A stretch of DNA of 36,602 nucleotides from an uncultured Acetatifactor sp. (GTDB lineage: Bacteria > Bacillota > Clostridia > Lachnospirales > Lachnospiraceae), in contig CANPYG010000019.1 in assembly GCA_947588205.1 (NCBI GenBank), positions 1 through 36,602 of the forward strand, in the 5' to 3' direction. A program made the translations under genes and the position numbers. The notes under the pieces are model-generated. The model was given only the letters and a program-made list of their open reading frames with translations, searched no databases and was not told the DNA's origin. Shown here one piece after another: positions 5,012 through 13,038 of the stretch (position 1 is the stretch's first letter; each line of letters opens with the position of its first letter).

Positions 5012-5301
5012 TGCTGTGACATGATAGCTGTGAAGCGCGAGGTTGCTGCTGGCGGGCGATCGACAGCAGGTTTTCCGTGGAGCGAATGTCAAGTTAGAAA
5101 ACTGACGGCAAGTCACTGTACCAATTAAAGTCTACCGCAGGGTAGAAACGACGTGTGAGGTTAGAATCCCGGCTGGGTTGCACGAGGATATGGACACACA
5201 CGGGAGAGTGTACAGTCACCGCTTGTCGTACTGAAAGCGTGATATTGCCGGATGCAGTATCCGCTTGAAATGAAAAGTGCGAAAAGGAGGCGACTTTTTT
5301 T
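5012..5301 (+). promoter_or_regulatory. Long structured 5' leader of the S10 operon
   Basis: About 290 nt between the predicted TSS and rpsJ; hairpins CTGCTG..CAGCAG, TCTACC-GCAG-GGTAGA (5131-5146), CGGAT-GCAGT-ATCCG, and AAAAGT..ACTTTT (5273-5298) with the SD in the loop. Confidence 0.5.
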
Positions 5302-5749: not shown

Positions 5750-5799
5750 GGAAATACCGCCCCGCGGTATTTCCCGATGAACTGCTTGTCAGTTCATCG
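5750..5799 (+). promoter_or_regulatory. Two back-to-back perfect hairpins in the rpsJ-rplC intercistronic region
   Basis: GGAAATACCGC-CCC-GCGGTATTTCC (5750-5774) directly followed by CGATGAACTG-CTTGT-CAGTTCATCG (5775-5799). Confidence 0.6.
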
Positions 5800-12098: not shown

Positions 12099-12284
12099 AT
12101 GGCAAAAACATCTTTAAAGATTAAACAGCAGCGCAAGCCTAAGTTTTCCACACAGGCTTATACCCGCTGCAGAATTTGTGGCCGTCCACATGCTTACTTA
12201 AGAAAGTACGGAGTCTGCAGAGTTTGCTTCCGTGAGCTGGCATATAAGGGACAGATTCCCGGCATGAAGAAGGCGAGCTGGTAA
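12099..12284 (+). CDS. rpsZ: 30S ribosomal protein S14, zinc-binding type Z
   Basis: 61 aa with [38 protein letters not shown], two CxxC motifs. Confidence 0.96.
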
Positions 12285-12286
12285 CA

Positions 12287-12333
12287 GGCTCCCGCAGAGC
12301 GGGAGCCCGAAGAATTCGCTTTGCGAATTCTTC
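12287..12333 (+). repeat. Hairpin pair after rpsZ: GGCTCCCGC-AGA-GCGGGAGCC + GAAGAATTCGC-TTT-GCGAATTCTTC
   Basis: Perfect stems 12287-12295/12299-12307 and 12309-12319/12323-12333. Confidence 0.85.
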
Positions 12334-12433
12334 CCCTGGGCTTTTTAAGCTGGGTGGTGAATAAGGTATTCTTCATGGGTTGAACGGAAGGCTGATGTTA
12401 TAAGAGGTCAAGAGAATTAAGGAGGAAGTCATA

Positions 12434-12835
12434 ATGACAATGAGCGATCCTATTGCAGATATGCTTACAAGAATCCGTAATGCAATCTCTGCAAAACACG
12501 ATACAGTTGATGTTCCTGCTTCCAGGATGAAGTTAGCAATCGCAGACATCCTTCAGGAAGAGGGTTATATTAAGAAGTATGATGTGATTGAGGAAGGAAG
12601 CTTCAAGACCATTCATATTGAACTGAAGTATGGCGCCAATAAGAACGAGAGAATCATTTCCGGCATCAAGAGAATCTCCAAGCCTGGACTGCGTGTCTAT
12701 GCAGGCAAGGAGGATATGCCCAAGGTATTGGGTGGAATGGGGATTGCCATCATTTCTACTAACCAGGGCGTAATCACAGATAAGAAGGCAAGAGAGCTGG
12801 GCGTAGGCGGCGAAGTGCTGGCGTTTGTCTGGTAA
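12434..12835 (+). CDS. rpsH: 30S ribosomal protein S8
   Basis: [46 protein letters not shown]. Confidence 0.98.
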
Positions 12836-12837
12836 AA

Positions 12838-12888
12838 CGACGAATGCGATGCATTCGTCGAGAAGAATTCGCATAATGCGAATTCTTC
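12838..12888 (+). repeat. Hairpin pair after rpsH: CGACGAATGC-GAT-GCATTCGTCG + GAAGAATTCGCA-TAA-TGCGAATTCTTC
   Basis: Perfect stems 12838-12847/12851-12860 and 12862-12873/12877-12888. Confidence 0.85.
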
Positions 12889-12898
12889 CCTGGAATTG

Positions 12899-12980
12899 AG
12901 GAGATTCGCTTTACGCGAATTCTTCCTGCGGAAGGTTTGAAGTCAGGGGATTGAAAGATTTGCTTTACGCGAATTCTTCC
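12899..12980 (+). repeat. Two further degenerate copies of the GATTCGC..GCGAATTCTTCC element
   Basis: gagattcgctttacgcgaattcttcc (12901-) and agatttgctttacgcgaattcttcc (ending about 12980). Confidence 0.75.
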
Positions 12981-13038
12981 CCGGAATCAAGGAAATTTAA
13001 AAACATTAGATCCCATAATTATTATAGGAGGTACGGGC

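Follow-up and report, generated by a model that had tools for sequence, protein, structure and literature searches.

The palindromes around rpsH in the window (the whole analysed stretch of 36,602 nucleotides from an uncultured Acetatifactor sp.) are probably, with a probability of about 0.6, the second hairpins (hairpin B) of a composite repeat of Acetatifactor and other Lachnospiraceae, which is anchored to stop codons, resembles REP and BOX elements in kind, and acts on the mRNA or on termination. The anatomy, position and orientation of this repeat, its dispersal in relatives, its presence or absence in individual species and the covariation of its arms were established at the level of sequence. 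As to the host, the best match to rpsH among named genomes was an uncultured Acetatifactor (92% identity), ahead of other Lachnospiraceae, which points to this genus. No account of such a repeat was found in the literature on Lachnospiraceae palindromes or structured RNAs, and a stop-codon-anchored double-hairpin repeat family is apparently undescribed in the literature searched.

Hairpin pairs behind rpsN and rpsH

The four sites of GCGAATTCTTCC reported in the first-pass annotation were recovered exactly at 12323-12334, 12878-12889, 12915-12926 and 12969-12980, and they were the only exact copies (4 forward, 0 reverse) in the draft genome (2.8 Mb, 135 contigs, 93% complete). When up to one mismatch to GCGAATTCTTCC was allowed, 9 matches were obtained in the window against a shuffle mean of 0.28, and 0 of 100 shuffles reached 9. 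A pattern search of the same genome with three mismatches returned the known perfect copy and matches near the level of chance (12 forward versus 8 in the reversed control). The first two sites had been described as palindromes with a GAATTC core; they proved to be the right arms of perfect hairpins, with GAATTC lying inside each arm. The degenerate left arm ascribed to the third and fourth copies was observed, and the residual hairpin of these copies is weak (6-7 bp).

An additional perfect hairpin, overlooked in the annotation, lies directly 5' of each perfect hairpin B, and both of the resulting pairs start 2 nt past a stop codon, all features being on the forward strand. The first pair is anchored to the stop codon of rpsN (S14, 12099-12284; TAA at 12282-12284) and consists of a short-form first hairpin at 12287-12307 (GGCTCCCGC-AGA-GCGGGAGCC, 9 bp) and hairpin B at 12309-12333 (GAAGAATTCGC-TTT-GCGAATTCTTC, 11 bp). 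The second pair is anchored to the stop codon of rpsH (S8, 12434-12835; TAA at 12833-12835) and consists of a short-form first hairpin at 12838-12860 (CGACGAATGC-GAT-GCATTCGTCG, 10 bp) and hairpin B at 12862-12888 (GAAGAATTCGCA-TAA-TGCGAATTCTTC, 12 bp with a 3-nt loop). The gap that holds the second pair, which is followed by rplF (L6, 13039-13581), was predicted to fold better than every shuffle (z = -4.1). It also contains a decayed copy of B at 12902-12926, whose left arm is degenerate and of which a 7-bp hairpin remains, and a second decayed copy with flank at 12953-12997. Because this second copy repeats the 45 nt at 12862-12906 with 78% identity, the flank was copied along with hairpin B; by sequence, the third and fourth copies arose when B and its flank were duplicated locally in tandem, and they have since decayed. 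The local expansion proposed earlier is thus limited to this one tandem duplication between rpsH and rplF, and does not extend to further exact copies in the genome.

A third abutting pair of perfect hairpins (11 and 10 bp) was located in the rpsJ-rplC gap at 5750-5799 on the forward strand, and its membership is uncertain: it lies 131 nt past the rpsJ stop, is not stop-anchored and is without the GAAGAAT arm. Sampling 400 kb elsewhere in the genome revealed no abutting perfect hairpin pairs. Two further GAAGAAT...ATTCTTC palindromes were seen in this genome, one of which, a lone GAAGAATGCTTCAGCATTCTTC palindrome, lies at a break in an ATPase-like reading frame (locus L362, 1501-1522; contig C15, 24912-24933).

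No T-run follows the window hairpins, and the two terminator-like matches between 12000 and 13200 do not coincide with the pairs; intrinsic terminators, defined as a G+C-rich hairpin followed by a T-run, were accordingly set aside as a class for the pairs. The sole Rfam 15 match in the window was the S10-Clostridia ribosomal protein leader (RF03136, 87 bits) at 5022-5111, and 15 loci gave no match at E <= 1. The draft state of the assembly, in 135 contigs, leaves some room for chance palindromes or an assembly artefact, but such an origin is extremely improbable, being already contradicted by the shuffle statistics, by the double-hairpin architecture and by hairpins recurring at this site in further assemblies.

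The composite element in related genomes

In relatives, a full copy was composed of hairpin A (60 nt) and, 0-5 nt further on, hairpin B, usually of the form GAAGAA...TTCTTC. Hairpin A has an outer stem of about 8 bp, then an 8-bp A/T-rich stem and then an inner stem of 6 bp, all variable in sequence, together with a symmetric TAA/TAA internal loop, a 7-nt loop near AAAGTAC and an AAG bulge on the 3' side. Hairpin B was found within 6 nt past A in 39 of 48 copies, with arms that were usually GAAGAA, GAGAAT or GCAAGAA. Among 43 hairpin A seeds of equal length, selected by the TAA/TAA loop and by pairing (the invariance of TAA/TAA follows from this selection; the AAAGTAC-like loop and the AAG bulge played no part in it), 94.5% of the pair cells were paired, two-sided changes numbered 226 versus 63 in shuffles, and the covariation score was 0.626 versus 0.169 for shuffles and 0.03-0.12 for slid versions. 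G-U pairs were rare: hairpin A had 10 among 894 paired cells (1.1%) and hairpin B had 2.4%, whereas a small control set of tRNA acceptor stems at these loci (21 stems) had 8.2%. At loci L247-L266 of genome G044, a third conserved stretch (GATTGTTTGTGCCGC...GCGGCA) often followed hairpin B and some copies were in tandem; the complete unit may be longer than A plus B.

Of 51 Acetatifactor genomes, 41 gave matches to the covariance model of hairpin A, and G044 alone had at least 104 copies (107 candidates scored); at least 36 of 299 Lachnospiraceae genomes (18 candidates scored per genome) also matched. In a class-wide sample, 8 of 393 genomes were positive: six were Lachnospiraceae, G640 was a strong outlier and G584 was marginal. 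The 76 pattern matches in viral contigs included none with the full fold in a script check.

In the window genome itself, the covariance model gave no match to a full hairpin A, and the best score within the window had E = 2.9. A plain first hairpin of 9-10 bp stands in place of A, as in genome G039, and the window rpsN-rpsH pair is identical to the G039 rpsH-rplF pair at 45 of 55 positions (82%), the differences including two compensated double changes, both in the first hairpin. Both window pairs start 2 nt past the stop in the sense direction, inside the 0-9 nt range of the composite, and have a GAAGAAT...ATTCTTC second hairpin abutting the first, as expected of the composite. A possible intermediate was seen in the rpsH-rplF gap of L137, in which a short pair is followed by a full hairpin A. 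In L074, tandem B copies with flank resemble the decayed copies of the window. Since the window copies are without the hairpin A core, membership leans on hairpin B, the tandem plan, the position and intermediates, from which we infer that the window form is a reduced or sister form of the composite element.

The same gaps were compared across the genus. A Watson-Crick hairpin of at least 6 bp beginning no more than 12 nt past the stop was present between rpsH and rplF in 17 of 29 genomes; the other 12 of the 29 readable genomes, mostly with short gaps, had none, which indicates that a hairpin after rpsH is dispensable in those species. Between rpsN and rpsH, a hairpin was present in 7 of 28 genomes, and the other gaps were mostly 15-19 nt. 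The search for empty sites suggested earlier gave a positive result, as both gaps are empty in the nearest named relative (L127), measuring 18 and 39 nt versus 149 and 203 nt in the window, and the 3' boundary of the rpsN-rpsH gap, TAAGGAGGAAGTCATAATGACAATG, is common to the two. The empty sites are those of a different species, with boundaries that have diverged far, and the MITE status suggested earlier, which implies terminal inverted repeats, a target-site duplication and a related full transposon, is conjectural. A second, unrelated structured element with the core CAAGCACGAGCGAAGCGAAGTATTTG plus ATCGAGAAAAC...GTTTTCGAGAT was observed directly past rpsH in L019, L030, L041, L042, L129, L130, L136 and L142. 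This same-site element (CAAGCACGAG core) does not account for the dispersal, having at most one copy per genome in a pattern search of the genus.

Post-stop hairpins behind rpsH in 17 of 29 species, belonging to at least two unrelated sequence families, would also be expected if each species had formed its own structure there for autoregulation by ribosomal proteins or attenuation of the operon, with the GAAGAAT arm arising by coincidence or convergence, and the lack of other pairs in the 400-kb sample agrees with this. Such independent origins are nevertheless quite improbable: the identical composite plan recurs after many unrelated genes, the window pair and its G039 counterpart, which occupy different gaps, share 82% identity across 55 nt, and Rfam leader matches are absent at the pairs.

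Placement, orientation and mode of spread

All 27 of the 27 model matches in ribosomal-operon loci of named genomes were on the sense strand, and the copies with annotated neighbours in these loci mostly began 0-5 nt past a stop codon. The occupied gaps were rpsN-rpsH, rpsH-rplF, rpsQ-rplN, rplW-rplB, rpsK-rpsD, rpsD-rpoA, rpsE-rplO, secY-adk and adk-map. In G044, the upstream gene was on the same strand for 39 of 44 copies (395-kb sample chosen around matches), and 25 of 31 near-end copies lay between -1 and +9 nt from the upstream stop, where 6.0 would be expected under uniform placement in the gap and the maximum of 20,000 uniform-placement simulations was 14. By reading, the element seemingly provides the stop codon itself in several G044 copies.

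The dispersed and tandem copies, the presence or absence between species and the empty sites could likewise be produced by a purely selfish non-autonomous repeat of the REP/REPIN type or with an IS200/IS605-like single-stranded DNA hairpin, mobilised in trans by a transposase of the tyrosine or another type and found behind stop codons only where insertion is tolerated; the scarcity of G-U pairs is what a DNA hairpin would lead one to expect. This explanation is judged unlikely, as mere tolerance predicts both orientations and use of the whole gap, neither of which was seen, and as Y1_Tnp was not found in the copy-rich genomes G001, G005, G036, G043 and G081 and did not track copy number. The only Y1_Tnp match in the window genome covered 25 residues of a truncated IS200-like reading frame (L015, 1474-1938; contig C59). 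With this fragmentary trace, and none in several copy-rich relatives, the suggested association with a REP-type transposase (RAYT) is unsupported. The first-pass description as REP-like holds in kind, in that the hairpins form a dispersed structured intergenic repeat family, but not in the sense of a RAYT-driven one.

Several known classes were also considered for the window and its relatives. REP elements are palindromes of 20-40 bp present at high copy in the extragenic space of one genome; the window genome, with four exact copies in two gaps, does not fit this, although relatives carry many copies of the related full element. For the GTAG/CGTC superfamily, no unpaired GTAG or CGTC tag was noticed by reading beside the printed hairpin ends. 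Integron attC sites, which are also post-stop and recognised by shape, were set aside as improbable given the ordinary operon genes around the copies and the absence of visible GTT/AAC boxes.

Under the composite stop-anchored repeat, it is tentatively possible that stop codons are the specific destination of a structured repeat, which comes to lie just past them in sense orientation, with no REP-type transposase involved, by a process that targets stop codons or is templated by transcripts, and that its arms are kept identical by copying and not by base-by-base selection on the RNA.

Proposed action and relation to known repeats

In the proposed scheme, the full element would begin right past the stop codon, in the sense direction and usually within an operon, and the window genome would retain it in reduced form behind rpsN and behind rpsH; in the rpsH-rplF gap, B would have been duplicated with its flank and later decayed. 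The copies would be transcribed together with the operon. Their sense, stop-anchored, intra-operon placement suggests that they influence either the transcript or the ribosomes that terminate there: the hairpins may act on the mRNA end of the upstream gene, as a block to 3'-to-5' decay or as an RNase III-like processing point, and/or may affect ribosomes finishing that gene. Template switching, a DNA-hairpin intermediate or some other copying mechanism biased towards exact palindromes could keep the arms matched. The few G-U pairs fit either copying of one arm from the other or recognition of the hairpin as DNA, and since such scarcity is not usual in an element maintained solely as RNA, a mainly DNA-level role is conceivable.

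REPs are barriers to 3'-to-5' decay. REP and BIME elements are many-copy short palindromes, often just 3' of coding regions, some of which provide the stop codon (PMC12306157; PMC3733652), and E. coli REPs less than 16 nt from the stop are reported to stall ribosomes and lower translation (PMC12306157). GTAG REPs often show G-U pairs, and the hosts of GTAG and CGTC REPs in that survey belong to other phyla, with Firmicutes not named (PMC3733652). The Acetatifactor element is like REP/BIME, and especially like E. coli REPs within 15 nt of the stop, in being a short multi-copy palindrome near stops, but it is larger, comprises two hairpins and a TAA/TAA internal loop, lies in sense orientation and has rare G-U pairs, with neither a GTAG/CGTC tag seen nor a link to a REP-type transposase.

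The BOX, RUP and SPRITE repeats are composite in build and are not known to have a transposase of their own. These families were described in Streptococcus pneumoniae (PMC3049150). They are likewise small interspersed structured repeats of a Firmicute, a likeness drawn from their descriptions, whereas strict anchoring to stop codons is a feature of the Acetatifactor element. The phage T7 R1.1-type RNase III hairpin lies between genes of a polycistronic mRNA; it totals about 22 bp and contains an internal loop. By analogy, a hairpin with an internal loop between operon genes is seen here too, with RNase III cleavage putative, but the Acetatifactor element is a dispersed repeat family. The bcr1-bcr18 repeats of the Bacillus cereus group are dispersed and intergenic, some being MITE-like; about half occur in mRNA, as parts of UTRs or inside operons, and bcr3 is associated with mRNA decay rate (PMC3446304). 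Set beside the Acetatifactor element by description, they are also dispersed intergenic repeats, in a different taxon.

The REP surveys that were found deal mainly with Proteobacteria and a small number of other phyla, and the repeat described here belongs to a major gut lineage. If it is transcribed, its copies would provide many natural tests of how a strong post-stop hairpin affects termination, mRNA decay and protein ratios, some of them in essential ribosomal-protein operons, and how it spreads with no REP-type transposase would call for an explanation of its own.
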